Positions 4,895 to 63,059 of a DNA stretch of 64,000 nt are shown piece by piece; the first letter of the stretch is position 1; every line of letters begins with the position of its first letter. Both the position numbers and the translations under genes were made by a program. Under the pieces are notes generated by a model. The model was given only the letters and a program-made list of their open reading frames with translations. It was not told where the DNA came from and made no database searches. This DNA is from Selenomonas timonae (lineage in GTDB: Bacteria > Bacillota > Negativicutes > Selenomonadales > Selenomonadaceae), in contig NZ_CP060204.1 in the NCBI RefSeq assembly GCF_014250475.1, forward strand, positions 1,625,001 through 1,689,000. The letters run 5' to 3'.

Positions 4895-5173
4895 ATGAAG
4901 AACGCAGAAGCAAGATGGCCGAAGACCACCACGATGGAGCACCTCGATGAGATGCGGTTCGGGACAAGCGGCGCGATCCTTCGCTACGGCGAGCAGATCC
5001 TTGTCGTCGGGATGGAATGCTGGGGATTCCACGCAGCCGTCTACGAGATGGTTGAAACGCCGGAGGAGACGGGACTGGCAGACATTGAATGCCGCCTGAA
5101 CCTCGTCGAAGCCGCCACGGAGCTTTTTGAGGACGGCGGGCACGCGATGGCATGGTGCATGAAGCGCATCTAA
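4895..5173 (+). CDS. Conserved small phage protein, accessory cassette 2 (prophage A)
   Basis: 92 residues, not recognised. Soluble, mixed charge, with a beta-rich middle (GAILRYGEQILVVGMECWGFHAAVY would form strands) and a C-terminal helix (NLVEAATELFEDGGHAMAW). No catalytic motif seen. The ATG at 4895 follows GCGAGGA. It has its own upstream promoter-like element and two downstream hairpins, so it looks like an independently transcribed moron gene between the DUF5049 and terminase genes. The prophage B copy (60577-60855) is almost identical. Confidence 0.7.
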   Translation: MKNAEARWPKTTTMEHLDEMRFGTSGAILRYGEQILVVGMECWGFHAAVYEMVETPEETGLADIECRLNLVEAATELFEDGGHAMAWCMKRI

Positions 5174-5192
5174 GCCACGCCGAACAACAAAA

Positions 5193-5241
5193 CAGCCCTT
5201 CGGGGCTGCTTCTCGTATTGCCGCTATTGAGCGGCTTTTTT
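5193..5241 (+). terminator. Double hairpin closing cassette 2
   Basis: First stem CAGCCC/GGGCTG at 5193-5208 with TTCG loop. Second stem GCCGCT/AGCGGC at 5220-5235, loop ATTG, followed directly by six T. In prophage B the second hairpin has a different sequence but keeps the stem and T tract. Confidence 0.7.
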
Positions 5242-5256
5242 GATGGGGGTGATCGC

Positions 5257-7878
5257 TTGCGGAAACTGACGGATTACAAGCCGACGAGGTTCATGGCAGA
5301 GGACGCACACTATGACAAAGCCGCTGCGGACTATGCCGTCGGCTTCATCGAGTGCCTGTGCCATACGAAGGGGACGTGGGCAGGAAAGCCCTTCGAGCTG
5401 ATCGACTGGCAGGAGCGCATTATCCGAGACATTTTCGGAATTTTGAAACCGAACGGCTATCGGCAGTTCAACACGGCGTATGTTGAGATTCCCAAGAAAC
5501 AAGGAAAACAGCTTACTCTTGATACGAAAATCCCCACACCCGAGGGATTTACCACAATGGGCGATATTCGCGTCGGAGATACCGTTTTTGACGAAAACGG
5601 ACAGCCCTGCCGTGTTGTTGCAAAGAGCGATGTGGATGACACCGAGCAAGCCTATCGGCTGACTTTTCGTGACGGCTCGTCCATCGTCGCAGGGGAACGG
5701 CATCTCTGGAATGTGGAGCACATCATCGGCGAGCCGCGATCCATGCTTTGGACAACGGGTGAAATCTACAGCCGAACGATGAGGTACAGAGAAAAATATC
5801 GGGATAACGAGAAGGAGGCACGCCGTTCCATTATCCGAATCCCTGTGGCAAAATCGCTGAATCTCGCAGAGTGTGATCTTCCTGTTGATCCGTATCTTTA
5901 CGGATACTGGATCGGCAACGGATGTGCCACAAAGCCCGAAATTACTATCTGCGATAAGGACGTACAGGCGGTCACACAGAGTGTGCCGTATGCTCCATAC
6001 AACAGCATTCCTCAGCCGGGAAGTGTGCGCGTGTACTATGAGGAACTAAAGAGCATCCTCGTTCCGACATTCCGAGATAAGGTTATCCCAGTCGCATATC
6101 TAAGAGCCTCGGAGCGTCAGCGTTGGGAACTCTTGCAAGGTCTGATGGATTCTGACGGGTGCATCGGGAATCGGAAGGCGCAGAGCGTCTACGTCAGCAC
6201 CATCAAACAGCTTGCCGAATCGGTACGCGAACTCTTGTGGAGTCTCGGCATCAAGAATGCCATGACAGAAGCACCGTCTACGCGATGCGGAAAGCCGACA
6301 GGGGAAACCCTCTACATCATACGGTTCACTACATTTGACGATCAACCAACATCAAAACTGCATCGGAAAATCTGCCGGAAACGGGAGCGGGTTAAAGAAA
6401 CTCGCTCCTGTTTTCATTATCTGGCAGACATCGTGTCGCTCTCAGAGCGAGTCCCCATGCAGTGCATTCAAGTGGATAGTGCAAGTCACTGCTATCTGGT
6501 AGGGGAATCCTTCGTGCCAACGCACAACAGCGAACTCGCCGCCGCTGTCGCACTCCTCCTTTGTTGCGGCGATGGGGAGGAGCGAGCCGAGGTGTATGGC
6601 TGTGCTGCCGATCGTCAACAGGCGAGCATCGTGTTCGAGGTCGCAGCAGACATGGTGCGTATGTGTCCCGCCCTCAGCAAGCGAGTGAAGATCCTTGCCT
6701 CCCAGAAGCGGATGGTATATCTGCCGACGAACAGCTTCTATCAGGTGCTTTCGGCAGAGGCATATTCAAAGCACGGCTTCAACATTCACGGCGTGGTATT
6801 TGATGAGCTGCACACGCAGCCGAACCGCAAGCTCTTTGACGTTATGACGAAAGGCTCCGGCGATGCGCGAATGCAGCCGCTTTACTTCCTTATCACCACG
6901 GCAGGAACGGATATGCAGTCCATCTGCTACGAGACACATCAGAAAGCAGTGGATATTCTGGAAGGGCGAAAGATTGATTCGACCTTCTATCCCGTGATCT
7001 ACGGAGCGAAGGAAGATGAGGACTGGACAGACCCGGAGGTTTGGAAACGGTCGAATCCGTCGCTTGGTATCACAGTCGGCATCGACAAGGTACAGGCGGC
7101 TTGCGACTCTGCACGGCAGAATCCAGCCGAGGAGAACAGCTTCCGTCAGCTTCGACTGAACCAATGGGTGAAGCAGTCCGTGCGGTGGATGCCGATGGAC
7201 AAGTGGGATAGCTGTGACGCCCATGTTGACGCTGAGTCCTTAGAGGGCTGTGTCTGCTACGGCGGTCTTGACCTTTCCTCTACGATGGACATTACGGCGT
7301 TTGTCCTCGTGTTCCCTCCGACGGAGGAGGATGAGCCGTTTGCCGTGCTTCCGTATTTCTGGATTCCCGAGGAGAACATCGACCTTCGTGTGCGGCGTGA
7401 CCATGTGCCGTATGACGTGTGGGAGAGACAGGGCTACGTACAAACGACAGAGGGGAATGTCGTGCATTACGGATTCATCGAGGCGTTCATTGAGAAACTT
7501 GGCGAGAAGTACAACATTCGCGAGATTGCCTTCGACCGATGGGGTGCAGTGCAGATGGTGCAGAACCTCGAGGGGATGGGCTTCACCGTTGTTCCATTCG
7601 GTCAGGGCTTCAAGGATATGAGTCCGCCGACCAAGGAGCTGATGAAGCTGACCTTGGAAAAGAAAATAGCGCACGGCGGGCATCCCGTCATGCGCTGGAT
7701 GGCAGACAACATCTTCATTCGCACCGACCCTGCGGGGAACATCAAGGCAGATAAGGAGAAGTCCACCGAGAAGATCGACGGCGTGATTGCGCTCATCATG
7801 GCTCTGGATCGTGCGATCCGCTGCGGGAATGATACCTCGGAATCGGTGTACGAGAGTCGGGGGATGTGGGTGTTTTAG
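5257..7878 (+). CDS. Terminase large subunit with full-length class 3 intein (prophage A)
   Basis: 873-residue precursor; removing the 340-residue intein (85-424) leaves a 533-residue terminase, a normal length. Terminase is the ATPase-nuclease that packages DNA into the prohead. The Walker A motif is split by the intein: PKKQGK before it and SELAAAVALLLC after it. Downstream are AEVYGCAADRQQASIVFEVA, the Walker B region VVFDELHTQPN and the nuclease domain (YGGLDLSSTMDITAF, then AFDRWGA). Without splicing the P-loop cannot form, so packaging should depend on splicing. The TTG start is chosen because GGGGGTG lies about 7 bases upstream and the conserved MRKLTDYKPT begins there. Confidence 0.92.
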   Translation: MRKLTDYKPTRFMAEDAHYDKAAADYAVGFIECLCHTKGTWAGKPFELIDWQERIIRDIFGILKPNGYRQFNTAYVEIPKKQGKQLTLDTKIPTPEGFTTMGDIRVGDTVFDENGQPCRVVAKSDVDDTEQAYRLTFRDGSSIVAGERHLWNVEHIIGEPRSMLWTTGEIYSRTMRYREKYRDNEKEARRSIIRIPVAKSLNLAECDLPVDPYLYGYWIGNGCATKPEITICDKDVQAVTQSVPYAPYNSIPQPGSVRVYYEELKSILVPTFRDKVIPVAYLRASERQRWELLQGLMDSDGCIGNRKAQSVYVSTIKQLAESVRELLWSLGIKNAMTEAPSTRCGKPTGETLYIIRFTTFDDQPTSKLHRKICRKRERVKETRSCFHYLADIVSLSERVPMQCIQVDSASHCYLVGESFVPTHNSELAAAVALLLCCGDGEERAEVYGCAADRQQASIVFEVAADMVRMCPALSKRVKILASQKRMVYLPTNSFYQVLSAEAYSKHGFNIHGVVFDELHTQPNRKLFDVMTKGSGDARMQPLYFLITTAGTDMQSICYETHQKAVDILEGRKIDSTFYPVIYGAKEDEDWTDPEVWKRSNPSLGITVGIDKVQAACDSARQNPAEENSFRQLRLNQWVKQSVRWMPMDKWDSCDAHVDAESLEGCVCYGGLDLSSTMDITAFVLVFPPTEEDEPFAVLPYFWIPEENIDLRVRRDHVPYDVWERQGYVQTTEGNVVHYGFIEAFIEKLGEKYNIREIAFDRWGAVQMVQNLEGMGFTVVPFGQGFKDMSPPTKELMKLTLEKKIAHGGHPVMRWMADNIFIRTDPAGNIKADKEKSTEKIDGVIALIMALDRAIRCGNDTSESVYESRGMWVF
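5509..6528 (+). other. Class 3 intein coding segment, full length
   Basis: 340 residues inserted between Lys and Ser of the terminase P-loop. Position 1 is Gln, not Cys or Ser. Block A is QLTLDTKIPTPEGF. Block B has H65 and W67 (GERHLW). Block F has C319 (MQCIQVDS). Block G is VPTHN with T338, then Ser as +1. Trp-B12, Cys-F4 and Thr-G5 form the WCT triplet that defines class 3 inteins, which splice from the block F Cys (established for mycobacteriophage examples). It includes a LAGLIDADG endonuclease. Confidence 0.88.
5887..6399 (+). other. LAGLIDADG homing endonuclease domain within intein
   Basis: 171 codons absent from the prophage B intein. Two dodecapeptide-like motifs are visible: LYGYWIGNG and LLQGLMDSDG, each with an acidic or near-acidic catalytic position (the first has Asn where Asp is usual, the second has Asp). 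The domain would cut intein-free terminase genes to promote homing. Whether the first motif is still catalytic is uncertain. Confidence 0.8.
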
Positions 7879-28877: not shown

Positions 28878-29216
28878 ATGGCAACAAACAGACAATACGA
28901 TCACGAATTTAAGGTGCAGGCAATCAAGCTGGCGCAGGAAATCGGTCAGGCGAAAGCCGCCAAAGAGCTGGGAATTTCCAAGAACACAATGTATACATGG
29001 ATGCGTGCTCATCGGCTTGGATATTTGGATCTTGGGTGTGGCACGCAAACACCGCAGAGTGCCCTAAGTCTGCACGAGGAACTCGTACAGCTTCGTGCAC
29101 AACTCAAAGCACAGGAGAAGGAAATTCGACGGCTAAAGAAAGAGAATGACTTTCTGGAGGAAGCAAGCGCTTTTTTCGCCGCGAGCCGTCTGAAGTCAAC
29201 AAAAACGAACGCATGA
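28878..29216 (+). CDS. IS3-family transposase OrfA
   Basis: 112 residues. Helix-turn-helix DNA-binding domain (YDHEFKVQAIKLAQEIGQ, then AAKELGISKNTMYTWMR) followed by a leucine-zipper-like coiled coil (HEELVQLRAQLKAQEKEI) that supports multimer formation. It binds the element's ends. The stop overlaps the orfB ATG by 4 bases. GAGAAGGAGAG precedes the ATG. Confidence 0.93.
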   Translation: MATNRQYDHEFKVQAIKLAQEIGQAKAAKELGISKNTMYTWMRAHRLGYLDLGCGTQTPQSALSLHEELVQLRAQLKAQEKEIRRLKKENDFLEEASAFFAASRLKSTKTNA

Positions 29217-30121
29217 AGTTGATTGCGTTCAAGACCTCAGATGGCGCCCTCAAAGGAAATATCAGCTTCTGCTGCAAGATGCTCCATGTCACGAGACAGG
29301 GATTTTATCAGTATTTGACGAGCAAAGACCGCCCATGGAAATATCAGGAACTTGCCGACGCCATGATGCAGATTCATGCAGAGGACGAATGCAACGACAC
29401 CTACGGAAGAATCCGCATGTATCAGGCACTCAAGATCAAACAGCCGGAAGGCGTCCGTATTCCGAGTGAACGAACTGTTTACCGTGTTATGGAAGAGATT
29501 GGCTTAAGTCATCGCCCCAATCATAGACCGAACGGTATCACCAAAACAGATCATAAGGCACAGATGTCAGAGGATCTCATGGGGCGCGATTTTACTGCCG
29601 ACACACCTCTTTCCAAGTGTGTCACTGACATGACAAAGATTCCGGCGTATGACGGAAAACTCTACATTTCAGCACTCTTTGACTGTTATGATGCCAGCGT
29701 GCTCGGACTGTCTATGGACACGAACATGAAGGCTTCTCTATGCGTAAGGATGCTGGATAACGCTATGCTCTCCTACCCAAAGCTCAGGGGAGCAATCCTG
29801 CACTCGGATCGCGGCAGCCAGTATACGAGTCAGCTGTATCGGGAGGCAATTCATACCTATGGGATTCGTCAAAGCATGAACAGTGCCGGTGGACGCTGTC
29901 ATGACAATGCGCGCTGTGAGAGTATGTGGGCGCGCATGAAGTCCGAGCTGCTCTATGGACGCTATGACACAAAGAAGATGACAATCGAAGAGTTGAAGGT
30001 ACTGGTTTGGCGATACTTCATGAGCTATTGGAACAACCGTCGGATTTGTTCAACAAACGGGGGGCTTCCTCCGATGGTGAAGCGGCGTCAGTTCTATGAC
30101 TCTATTGCCGCAGCTACTTAA
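29213..30121 (+). CDS. IS3-family transposase OrfB (DDE)
   Basis: 302 residues. HTH-like N-terminal part (YGRIRMYQALKIKQPEGV), then the rve integrase core with the DDE triad: Asp in VTDMTKIPAYDGKLY, Asp in ILHSDRGSQYTS, Glu in RCHDNARCESMWARMKSE. Ends in the usual YFMSYWNNRRI segment. All catalytic residues are present. Expressed by ATGA coupling or by frameshift fusion with OrfA. Confidence 0.95.
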   Translation: MKLIAFKTSDGALKGNISFCCKMLHVTRQGFYQYLTSKDRPWKYQELADAMMQIHAEDECNDTYGRIRMYQALKIKQPEGVRIPSERTVYRVMEEIGLSHRPNHRPNGITKTDHKAQMSEDLMGRDFTADTPLSKCVTDMTKIPAYDGKLYISALFDCYDASVLGLSMDTNMKASLCVRMLDNAMLSYPKLRGAILHSDRGSQYTSQLYREAIHTYGIRQSMNSAGGRCHDNARCESMWARMKSELLYGRYDTKKMTIEELKVLVWRYFMSYWNNRRICSTNGGLPPMVKRRQFYDSIAAAT

Positions 30122-47847: not shown

Positions 47848-48684
47848 TCAACGAATTGAGTCCATAATCTTGATAATGGTTTCGCAGGCCGAGGAAAATT
47901 CGACTTCTCTCGCATATTCATAATCGCGCTGATATGTTTTCCAGTGTTGCTGCATTGCACTGCTCTTTACAATCTGCCCCATGATACTGTGATACTGCGG
48001 GATTAGGTCACCGGAATGGCGCTTTTGGGCAGTTTCGGACAATGCTTTACGCAAAATATCACGGTCTATCTCATTTTCTTTCAGCTTGCTGAGAATGAAA
48101 ATATCGTAGTAGTCTCTTGGACGTGTGTTTTGGTCGCTGCGAGAGATTACCGTCTCCAATTTTTCGGCGAGAATCGTCTCAAGATTGTACGCAAAAATCT
48201 CCAACGTATCGTCGCTGAACATCATCGGATAGTTGTATTCGATTGCTTCAGGGGTGATCTTATCGCCGGTTGTAATGTCCAGTTTCAGTGGAACTCTCAT
48301 AGGGGGAAAGTTTGCGGTCAGTGAGATGCGGTATCCACCGTAGGCATCGTTTTTTCGGATTTTTCCTACACCTTGGAAGCTGAAGCTTATATCATCGTCG
48401 ATGGGGATGGAGACGATCTCCTCGAACATTGTTTTTATGCTGTTTTCGTTCACGGGATGATTTCGGATGGTGGCGTCCATATCCATTGTGGCACGCGAAT
48501 GAAGACCAACCATGGAGGCGATCAACAGTCCGCCTTTGAGGATGAAGTTCCCTTGATATTTTGAACGAGAGATGCGCTCCAACAGGCGTTCCAACATATA
48601 ATTTTGCATCACAAGCTGGGCAGGAATGTGCTTGTCCTTTGCCATTTTGCTGATGGCCGCTTTTAATTGCATGGCATTCTTCAC
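47848..48684 (-). CDS. AbiEii-type nucleotidyltransferase toxin
   Basis: 278 residues of the AbiEii/AbiGii family. NFILKGGLLIASMVGLHSRATMDMD holds the KGG and the D-x-D of the nucleotidyltransferase core. FAYNLETILAEKLET and TRPRDYYDIFIL are the conserved downstream motifs. AbiE systems abort phage infection through tRNA modification by the toxin. It overlaps the antitoxin gene by 4 bases. It lies against the direction of the phage replication genes, as cargo. Confidence 0.92.
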   Translation of the reverse strand: MKNAMQLKAAISKMAKDKHIPAQLVMQNYMLERLLERISRSKYQGNFILKGGLLIASMVGLHSRATMDMDATIRNHPVNENSIKTMFEEIVSIPIDDDISFSFQGVGKIRKNDAYGGYRISLTANFPPMRVPLKLDITTGDKITPEAIEYNYPMMFSDDTLEIFAYNLETILAEKLETVISRSDQNTRPRDYYDIFILSKLKENEIDRDILRKALSETAQKRHSGDLIPQYHSIMGQIVKSSAMQQHWKTYQRDYEYAREVEFSSACETIIKIMDSIR

Positions 48685-60950: not shown

Positions 60951-63059
60951 TTGCGGAAACTGACGGACTACAAGCCGACAAAGTTCATGGCAGAGGAATC
61001 GCACTATGACAAAGCCGCTGCGGACTATGCTGTGGGCTTTATCGAGTGCCTGTGCCATACGAAGGGGACGTGGGCAGGAAAGCCCTTCGAACTCATCGAC
61101 TGGCAGGAGCGCATTATCCGAGACATTTTCGGAATTTTGAAGCCGAGCGGGTATCGCCAGTTCAACACGGCGTATGTTGAGATTCCCAAGAAACAGGGAA
61201 AACAGTTGGCACTCAATACGAAAATCCCGACACCGAACGGATTCACTACAATGGGTGATATTCGTGTGGGAGATACCGTTTTTGACGAAAACGGACAGCC
61301 CTGCCGAGTTGTCGCCAAGAGCGATGTGGATGATACGGAGCAAGCCTATCGATTGACCTTCCGCGACGGATCGTCCATCGTGGCAGGGGAGCGGCATCTC
61401 TGGAATGTGGATTACATCATCGGTGAGCCGCGCTCCGTACTTTGGACAACGGGCGAAATCTACCGTCGGACGATGGAATATCGCGAGCGATATAGGGGGA
61501 ATGCAAAAGATGTGCATCGCTCTGTTATCCGTATCCCTGCGGCAAAGACGCTGCAGATCGAGAAAAGAAACCTGCCCGTCACTCGCTCCTGTTTTCATTA
61601 TCTGGCAGACATTGTGCCGCTCTCAGAGAGAGTCCCCATGCAGTGCATTCAAGTGGACAGCAGAAGCCATTGTTATCTGGTAGGGGAATCCTTCGTTCCA
61701 ACGCACAACAGCGAACTTGCCGCCGCCGTTGCACTTCTTCTTTGCTGCGGCGATGGGGAGGAGCGTGCCGAGGTGTATGGCTGTGCTGCTGATCGTCAGC
61801 AAGCAAGCATCGTATTCGAGGTCGCAGCAGATATGGTGCGGATGTGTCCCGCACTCGGCAAGCGGGTGAAGATCCTCGCCTCCCAGAAGCGGATGGTGTA
61901 TCTGCCGACGAACAGCTTCTATCAGGTGCTTTCGGCAGAGGCGTACTCGAAACACGGCTTCAATATACACGGGGTTGTGTTTGACGAGCTGCATACACAG
62001 CCGAACCGCAAGCTCTTTGACGTTATGACGAAAGGCTCCGGCGATGCGCGTATGCAGCCGCTCTACTTCCTCATCACTACGGCGGGGACGGATACGCAGT
62101 CCATCTGCTACGAGACACACCAGAAAGCAAAGGATATTCTCGAAGGGCGAAAGATTGATCCGACCTTCTATCCCGTGATCTACGGAGCGAAGGAGGATGA
62201 GGATTGGACAGACCCGGAGGTCTGGAAACGATCGAATCCGTCGCTCGGGATTACAGTCGGCATCGACAAGGTACAGGCAGCCTGTGACTCTGCACGGCAG
62301 AATCCCGCCGAGGAGAACAGCTTCCGTCAGCTGCGTTTGAATCAGTGGGTGAAGCAGTCTGTACGGTGGATGCCGATGGATAAGTGGGATGCGTGCGCCA
62401 CACCTGTGGATGCCGAGTCCTTGGAGGGGCGCGTCTGCTACGGCGGTCTTGACCTTTCCTCCACGATGGATATTACGGCATTTGTTCTTGTATTCCCTCC
62501 GACGGAGGAAAATGAGCCGTTTGCCGTGCTTCCGTATTTCTGGATTCCCGAGGAGAACATTGACCTGCGTGTGCGGCGTGATCATGTGCCGTATGACGTG
62601 TGGGAGAGGCAAGGTTTCCTGCAAACGACAGAGGGAAATGTGGTTCACTACGGATTCATCGAGATGTTCATCGAGAAACTGGGTGAGAAGTACAATATCC
62701 GCGAGATTGCCTTCGACCGATGGGGCGCGGTGCAGATGGTGCAGAACCTTGAGGGCATGGGATTCACCGTTGTTCCATTCGGGCAGGGCTTCAAGGATAT
62801 GAGCCCGCCGACCAAGGAACTGATGAAGCTGACCTTGGAAAAGACAATAGCGCACGGCGGGCATCCCGTCATGCGCTGGATGGCAGACAACATCTTCATT
62901 CGCACCGACCCTGCGGGGAACATCAAGGCAGATAAGGAGAAATCTATGGAGAAGATCGACGGTGTGATCGCACTTATCATGGCACTGGATCGTGCGATCC
63001 GTTGCGGGAATGATACGTCGGAATCGGTGTATGAGAGCCGTGGTGTGTGGGTGTTTTAG
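60951..63059 (+). CDS. Terminase large subunit with class 3 mini-intein (prophage B)
   Basis: 702-residue precursor; excision of the 169-residue mini-intein (85-253) leaves a 533-residue terminase, the same length as in prophage A. Same split P-loop (PKKQGK and SELAAAV), Walker B region VVFDELHTQPN and nuclease domain. The flanking extein is nearly identical to A. TTG start after GGGGGTG. Function depends on splicing because the intein sits inside the ATP-binding loop. Confidence 0.92.
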   Translation: MRKLTDYKPTKFMAEESHYDKAAADYAVGFIECLCHTKGTWAGKPFELIDWQERIIRDIFGILKPSGYRQFNTAYVEIPKKQGKQLALNTKIPTPNGFTTMGDIRVGDTVFDENGQPCRVVAKSDVDDTEQAYRLTFRDGSSIVAGERHLWNVDYIIGEPRSVLWTTGEIYRRTMEYRERYRGNAKDVHRSVIRIPAAKTLQIEKRNLPVTRSCFHYLADIVPLSERVPMQCIQVDSRSHCYLVGESFVPTHNSELAAAVALLLCCGDGEERAEVYGCAADRQQASIVFEVAADMVRMCPALGKRVKILASQKRMVYLPTNSFYQVLSAEAYSKHGFNIHGVVFDELHTQPNRKLFDVMTKGSGDARMQPLYFLITTAGTDTQSICYETHQKAKDILEGRKIDPTFYPVIYGAKEDEDWTDPEVWKRSNPSLGITVGIDKVQAACDSARQNPAEENSFRQLRLNQWVKQSVRWMPMDKWDACATPVDAESLEGRVCYGGLDLSSTMDITAFVLVFPPTEENEPFAVLPYFWIPEENIDLRVRRDHVPYDVWERQGFLQTTEGNVVHYGFIEMFIEKLGEKYNIREIAFDRWGAVQMVQNLEGMGFTVVPFGQGFKDMSPPTKELMKLTLEKTIAHGGHPVMRWMADNIFIRTDPAGNIKADKEKSMEKIDGVIALIMALDRAIRCGNDTSESVYESRGVWVF
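61203..61709 (+). other. Class 3 mini-intein coding segment
   Basis: 169 residues without endonuclease. Gln at position 1, H65 and W67 in GERHLW, C148 in MQCIQVDS, T167 in VPTHN, then Ser +1: the WCT triplet is complete, so splicing is expected. It lacks exactly the 171 codons that encode the LAGLIDADG domain in prophage A (between NLPV and TRSCFHYL). Confidence 0.88.

Follow-up and report, generated by a model that had tools for sequence, protein, structure and literature searches.

A class 3 intein in the terminases of two Selenomonas timonae prophages: full-length and mini forms, and a probable single deletion behind the minis

Two neighbouring prophages of Selenomonas timonae carry a full-length and a mini form of one intein in their terminase large subunits. 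Comparison with related genomes and viral contigs makes it very probable that both forms belong to one mobile class 3 terminase intein family, in which the mini goes back to a single old 513-bp deletion that phage exchange and recombination carried across the genus. One mini deletion would then be traceable through several recombined terminase alleles of one genus, beside full and empty genes. This would offer a datable system for studying the persistence of an endonuclease-free intein and the ways in which it continues to spread.

The two inteins and their class 3 signature

The window, i.e. the whole stretch of DNA that was analysed, is 64,000 nucleotides long. The ORF of terminase A spans positions 5152-7878 and is followed by portal, ClpP-like protease and capsid genes; terminase B is encoded at 60951-63059. 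Between both prophages, the 30-41 kb part of the window holds Mg-chelatase and esterase-type genes among others. Seven 300-nt blocks, 55.0-55.7 kb apart, are repeated between prophages A and B with 85-92% identity. The closest named phage record carries the label Ca. Heliusvirales. An IS-type transposase gene (rve domain) is located at the far end of prophage A (29213-30118, + strand), and the early region of prophage B contains an AbiEii-type nucleotidyltransferase gene (47851-48684, - strand, E 2.8e-41) of the type IV toxin-antitoxin or abortive-infection kind. The features of the two terminase genes are the following.

5257..5508 (+): N-extein of terminase large subunit A; the start is a TTG matching the start of terminase B, and the ORF is open from 5152
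5509..6528 (+): full-length 340-aa class 3 intein A (Q1 ... THN), 1020 bp, within the Walker A motif between GK and S
5707..5709 (+): W67 codon of full intein A (block B Trp of the WCT motif), W in 114/114 distinct inteins
5887..6399 (+): endonuclease segment, 513 bp, residues 127-297, missing from mini B; Pfam LAGLIDADG_3, 6.1e-07
5896..5922 (+): first LAGLIDADG motif, LYGYWIGNG, with an Asn codon (5917-5919) at the usual place of the catalytic Asp
6130..6159 (+): second LAGLIDADG motif, LLQGLMDSDG, with Asp216 retained
6463..6465 (+): C319 codon of full intein A (block F Cys of the WCT motif), C in 114/114
6529..7878 (+): C-extein of terminase A, comprising the rest of the ATPase and the nuclease (TerL_ATPase and TerL_nuclease domains)
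60951..61202 (+): N-extein of terminase large subunit B
61203..61709 (+): 169-aa class 3 mini-intein B, 507 bp
61551..61589 (+): deletion junction of mini B; tract CTGCAGATCGAG...CCCGTC (61551-61580), then ACTCGCTCC; in the other minis GCTCGCTCC
61644..61646 (+): C148 codon (block F Cys of mini B)
61710..63059 (+): C-extein of terminase B, by domain search

Both inteins are inserted in the Walker A loop between PKKQGK and SELAA, in terminases that share 95% of their amino acids in the N-extein and 96% in the C-extein. Their sole length difference is one gap of 513 bp (171 codons, full residues 127-297). Both LAGLIDADG motifs fall inside this segment, which in the predicted folds spans from the last strand before the endonuclease domain to the first strand after it, and LAGLIDADG_3 passes the Pfam cut-off in full intein A only. 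Mini B is a mini-intein in that the endonuclease is gone and the splicing blocks are retained: Q1, H65, W67, the block F Cys148 (Cys319 in the full form) and T-H-N before the +1 Ser. The original prediction of one intein at one site in both terminases, with exactly the LAGLIDADG domain lost from prophage B and the splicing blocks kept, is confirmed, and its coordinates are exact. Chance is excluded, since this 507-bp insert recurs at the identical position in further genomes and contigs. These comparisons support the assignment of full A and mini B to the same intein family, the mini being its endonuclease-deletion form.

H65, W67, C319, T338, H339 and N340 are invariant in all 114 distinct in-frame inteins of the window and related terminases. 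The WCT motif (Trp in block B, Cys in block F, Thr in block G) is thus present in 114/114, including both window copies. Residue 1 is Gln in 99 of these inteins (both window copies among them), Glu in 9, Leu in 4, Ala in 1 and Ser in 1; a Cys/Ser nucleophile at this position is absent from 113, the exception being L254 (Ser). Class 3 inteins are reportedly the subject of a 2011 paper by Tori and Perler. The WCT motif combined with a non-nucleophilic residue 1 is described as the class 3 signature (PMC5050341, PMC7664689). With this signature and their modelled structures, both window inteins look like class 3 inteins. Mean pLDDT is 95.1 for the full and 93.5 for the mini model, in which residues 125-127 at the junction are the only ones with pLDDT <50. 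The top seven PDB matches of the mini model are class 3 DnaB inteins (best 6bs8, E 1.3e-11). The full form has an intein-endonuclease fold with two LAGLIDADG helices as judged from Pfam LAGLIDADG_3 and from the matches of its model to the I-DmoI fold and, best of all, to PI-SceI (1vde, E 2.3e-18). PI-SceI is the closest solved fold (TM 0.72), and its second-motif region can also be aligned by sequence; unlike the window full intein, it belongs to class 1 and has Asp in each of its motifs.

Among known systems, BAKA TerL1-b, a mycobacteriophage class 3 TerL intein, shares with the full form a terminase host, insertion in the ATPase domain, the WCT motif and a LAGLIDADG domain (PMC5050341), with 32% identity over the whole length. 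The window family differs from it by a first residue that is mostly Gln and by its hosts, which are Firmicutes phages. Mini B finds its best structural match in the Mycobacterium class 3 DnaB mini-inteins (6bs8, 6rix), and MchDnaB1 is described with the same Cys-His-Thr triad and Trp67 (PMC7664689); however, the DnaB forms reside in a different host protein, are shorter and have ~30% identity.

In the splicing scheme that we infer for these inteins, Gln1 offers no nucleophile, so that the block F Cys (Cys319 of full A, Cys148 of mini B), with His65, Trp67 and Thr338/167, would attack the upstream junction. The N-extein would then pass to the +1 Ser, and Asn cyclisation would free the intein. 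In an unspliced terminase the ATP-binding loop would remain interrupted.

Origin of the mini-intein

As judged from sequence comparison, the mini deletion is older than the S. timonae window genome and is not derived from the neighbouring full intein A. The 507-bp insert is common to 5 of the 14 genus genomes (G000, G001, G008, G010 and G011) and is also found in IMG/VR contigs, some of which represent the same strains as the genomes. Six distinct mini gene alleles share an identical junction and the 30-nt tract upstream of it, a tract absent from the three full alleles of the genus; directly after the junction, window B has ACT and the other minis have GCT. A scan with the upstream tract retrieved five viral contigs, 5/5 with the deletion (two of the five had been included as loci before). 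The same scan of 189 family genomes found the tract in five, precisely those carrying minis. A flank scan of the viral contigs and the 189 family genomes found no full-length allele in which the junction flank of the minis is present. Since junction and tract are common to the minis of 5/14 genus genomes, the deletion is probably old.

The sequences around this junction are mosaic. The mini L090 is 100% identical to B in the N-extein and 87.9% in the C-extein. The mini L088 is 96.5% identical to B in the C-extein, yet 95.2% identical to full A in intein residues 1-90. Between the window terminases themselves, 68 of the 203 fourfold-degenerate sites of the C-exteins differ, and the DNA identity of the two inteins is 91.5% in residues 298-340 and 61% in residues 91-126 beside the gap. 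In the trees, minis are scattered among fulls. In the splicing-domain DNA tree, full A clusters with mini L088 (95/97), and mini B falls in the L090/L012 group, next to L090 (98/99); mini B is thus not nearest to its neighbour, full A. A single mini clade is rejected in the splicing-domain tree (p-AU 0.001) and not rejected in the extein tree (p-AU 0.276). A single deletion combined with this rejection requires recombination, and one deletion followed by recombination around the junction block best explains the mosaic. That the event was a deletion and not a gain is suggested by the nesting of minis among fulls and by a leftover 'NLPV' preceding the mini junction.

It is improbable that a deletion at the same nucleotides arose several times, the minis being parallel losses. 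The rejection of one mini clade by the splicing-domain tree is in line with such losses, and three other short forms, L016, L072 and L097, are plainly separate shortening events at this site; however, the six mini alleles share an upstream tract that the three genus fulls lack, and no obvious repeat flanks the gap. An ancestral mini from which the fulls gained their endonuclease is very improbable. Change counts on the trees cannot separate gain from loss, but fulls are widespread and deep (110/225 gene records, in a similarity-biased sample), their splicing and endonuclease parts vary together, and the few minis are nested. Hardly credible is a mini B made from intein A, or from a direct copy of it, by deletion in this lineage under selection relaxed at filled sites: the two share a genome, one clean in-frame gap and a closely similar intein end, but the divergence beside the gap and in the C-exteins, the same junction in five genus genomes and the occurrence of minis with empty sites or alone all speak against it.

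The original prediction had seen in the pair the before and after states of endonuclease loss in one genome. Given the shared junction, the mosaic minis and trees that split A from B, the window does not appear to hold a parent and its own deletion product. Relaxed selection had been explained by a homing copy lying beside an already filled site. This idea is unneeded and ill-fitting, since empty terminases accompany the minis in G008, G010 and G011, and G001 has a mini with no other copy. Separate acquisition of the two inteins, seen in a splicing-block phylogeny, had been named as the outcome that would refute a deletion derivative. On this point the answer is split: A and B stand apart in the tree, but this seems to be due to recombination around a single shared deletion and not to separate acquisition. 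Under the preferred single deletion, the mini would be a long-lived endonuclease-minus state that predates the S. timonae window genome, carried across the genus as phages were exchanged and terminase regions underwent homologous recombination, and retained since any failure to splice would be fatal to packaging.

Full, mini and empty states

All three states, for which a search among relatives had been suggested, were found. The 225 gene records, a similarity-biased sample in which L302 repeats the gene of L122, comprise 110 full, 101 empty, 9 short and 3 broken genes, and 2 rows of one relic. For the viral contigs, the best 80 of at least 595 and the best 80 of at least 501 confirmed stretches were used. 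Fragments without both flanks were dropped, as were terminases below the length cut-offs from the trees and +1 codons lacking serine from the codon-pair test. Besides the six genus minis, the short forms are L016 (144 aa), L072 (157 aa) and L097 (283 aa), which represent separate events. L097 retains both LAGLIDADG motifs and misses 48 residues between them; this intein (L097/L165/L248) belongs to Propionispora sp. 2/2-37 and is possibly a half-eroded endonuclease. Intact full copies are restricted to window A in the 14 genus genomes, and two more (L004, L005) are found among the IMG/VR matches listed. On a tree of 208 terminases, the distribution of filled and empty genes takes at least 26 changes.

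Coexistence of large, mini and empty states of one intein is established as the homing cycle, e.g. in Halobacteria (PMC4071816). The full, mini and empty states reported here are this already known cycle, and the window pair alone is a textbook case. The Halobacteria inteins likewise show three states of one allele in related lineages, with minis that lack the endonuclease (PMC4071816). In contrast to these, the alleles of the window family ride in prophages, with several states within one bacterial genome, and the same mini deletion is found on several recombined backgrounds.

AGY encodes the +1 Ser in 100 of 121 filled genes versus 27 of 88 empty ones. A synonymous target site, with TCN alleles resisting homing, was considered as an explanation and rejected except as a lead, the trend being not significant in independent pairs that control for relatedness (means of 4.7 versus 1.7 pairs, median p 0.45).

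The full intein, endonuclease included, seems to have moved horizontally as a unit. Among 99 fulls (4851 pairs), extein identity correlates poorly with splicing-domain identity (rho 0.28) and with endonuclease identity (rho 0.31), and the identities of the splicing and endonuclease parts correlate well with each other (rho 0.79). It is this low correlation outside and high correlation inside the intein that points to joint transfer, although the low values could also reflect saturation and uneven sampling. In 559 pairs, endonuclease identity exceeds extein identity by more than 5 points. Among the close relatives examined, purifying selection acts on the endonuclease domain: in the three full pairs formed by window A, L004 and L005, dN/dS is 0.03-0.06 for the endonuclease segment, 0.07-0.18 for the splicing segments and 0.02-0.04 for the C-extein, more distant pairs being saturated. 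The LAGLIDADG domain of the full form may carry the intein into empty terminase genes.

Two other arrangements were observed among these records. Allobaculum mucilyticum strain 128 has three full-length inteins (L151, L154, L155) in three prophages of one chromosome. In S. artemidis DSM 19719 (L164:5749-9792, NZ_AUFU01000015.1), a dead terminase copy is followed by a reverse-strand HNH_5 gene (E 3.7e-11, no PADLOC match) and then by an intact intein-free terminase. The dead copy has an in-frame stop near the splice site, an intein truncated at about residue 159 and LGNR as first motif. The same arrangement occurs in L070, L246 and L261/L269. In such phages, an intein-ruined terminase seems to have been replaced by a new empty gene.

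The Asn in the first LAGLIDADG motif

What sets the full form apart as an unusual, family-wide variant is, from its alignment, the conserved Asn of the first motif. Instead of an acidic residue in each LAGLIDADG motif, the full form has Asn137 and Asp216, positions which we take to be catalytic from PI-SceI, an assignment that rests on alignment. Of 107 distinct family members, 105 have Asn at the last-acid position of the first motif, and only L009 and L010 have Asp there; Lys191 of block D is invariant in an alignment of 61 sequences. In the wider set of 15 phage inteins, of which 14 were hand-picked from 60 of 720 records and BAKA was added for its published activity, Asp is found in 14 (13 of the 14 picked, and BAKA) and Asn in that of phage ACF1; these inteins are not independent, since BAKA resembles Thibault. 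Three changes between Asp and Asn are needed on a quick tree, which came with long-branch warnings and in which the outgroup is not monophyletic: one D-to-N change for the family, one reversal (L009/L010) and one change in ACF1. At the aligned position, BAKA has LGDG where the window family has LGNG. In published assays, the intein of BAKA underwent splicing and also cleaved an intein-free target with 75% identity over the 20 nt to either side (mBio 2016, PMC5050341). We found nothing in the open-licence PMC literature on LGNG in LAGLIDADG inteins and nothing relevant there on D218/D326 of PI-SceI, an absence that is weak evidence for either. The original prediction of a homing-competent full copy is not supported by an Asn at the usual catalytic Asp, despite the purifying selection on the domain.

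The full form may be an Asn-tolerant cutter, a natural nickase or a non-cutter conserved for another reason. The K227M mutant of I-AniI, with one active site disabled, is described as a nickase that still nicks and initiates gene conversion (PMC3164693). We tentatively consider that the fulls of this Firmicutes-phage family could be natural single-active-site nickases acting on one strand of empty terminase genes, with nick-primed recombination, and no double-strand break, spreading the intein from phage to phage. A single gain of Asn at the root of the family would have been followed by its maintenance under selection and by a return to Asp in the small lineage of L009 and L010.

It is also possible, though rather doubtful, that the endonuclease of the whole family is dead, the domain being kept as a fold or DNA-binding part that aids splicing or regulation. 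The near-universal Asn at the first catalytic position agrees with a dead enzyme, as does the presence of an empty terminase alongside an intact full intein in 9 (including 5 isolates) of the 33 other intein-bearing genomes searched. The closest such pair belongs to an isolate of Acidaminococcus provencensis (L123/L295): its empty gene shows 93% identity over 600 nt, with 35 of 40 nt matching around the site. However, most co-resident empty sites differ at 6-16 of the 40 nt. Phage late genes are normally silent in prophages, and terminase should be so as well. Such sites are therefore weak evidence, and as proof of a dead endonuclease they were rejected; the enzyme is either not made in lysogens or non-cutting. 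Against a dead enzyme, moreover, no other part of the intein is as constrained as this domain in close pairs, and the family looks horizontally spread. The three short-form lineages besides the genus minis lack all or part of the domain, and splicing would thus not need it.

If the family has indeed stayed mobile with Asn, the rule that homing needs both LAGLIDADG acids becomes testable. The window family, the Asp-bearing L009 and L010, and BAKA form a natural test set for this two-acid rule. L009 and L010, both from IMG/VR, are nested among the Asn forms and provide a natural Asp-bearing control.
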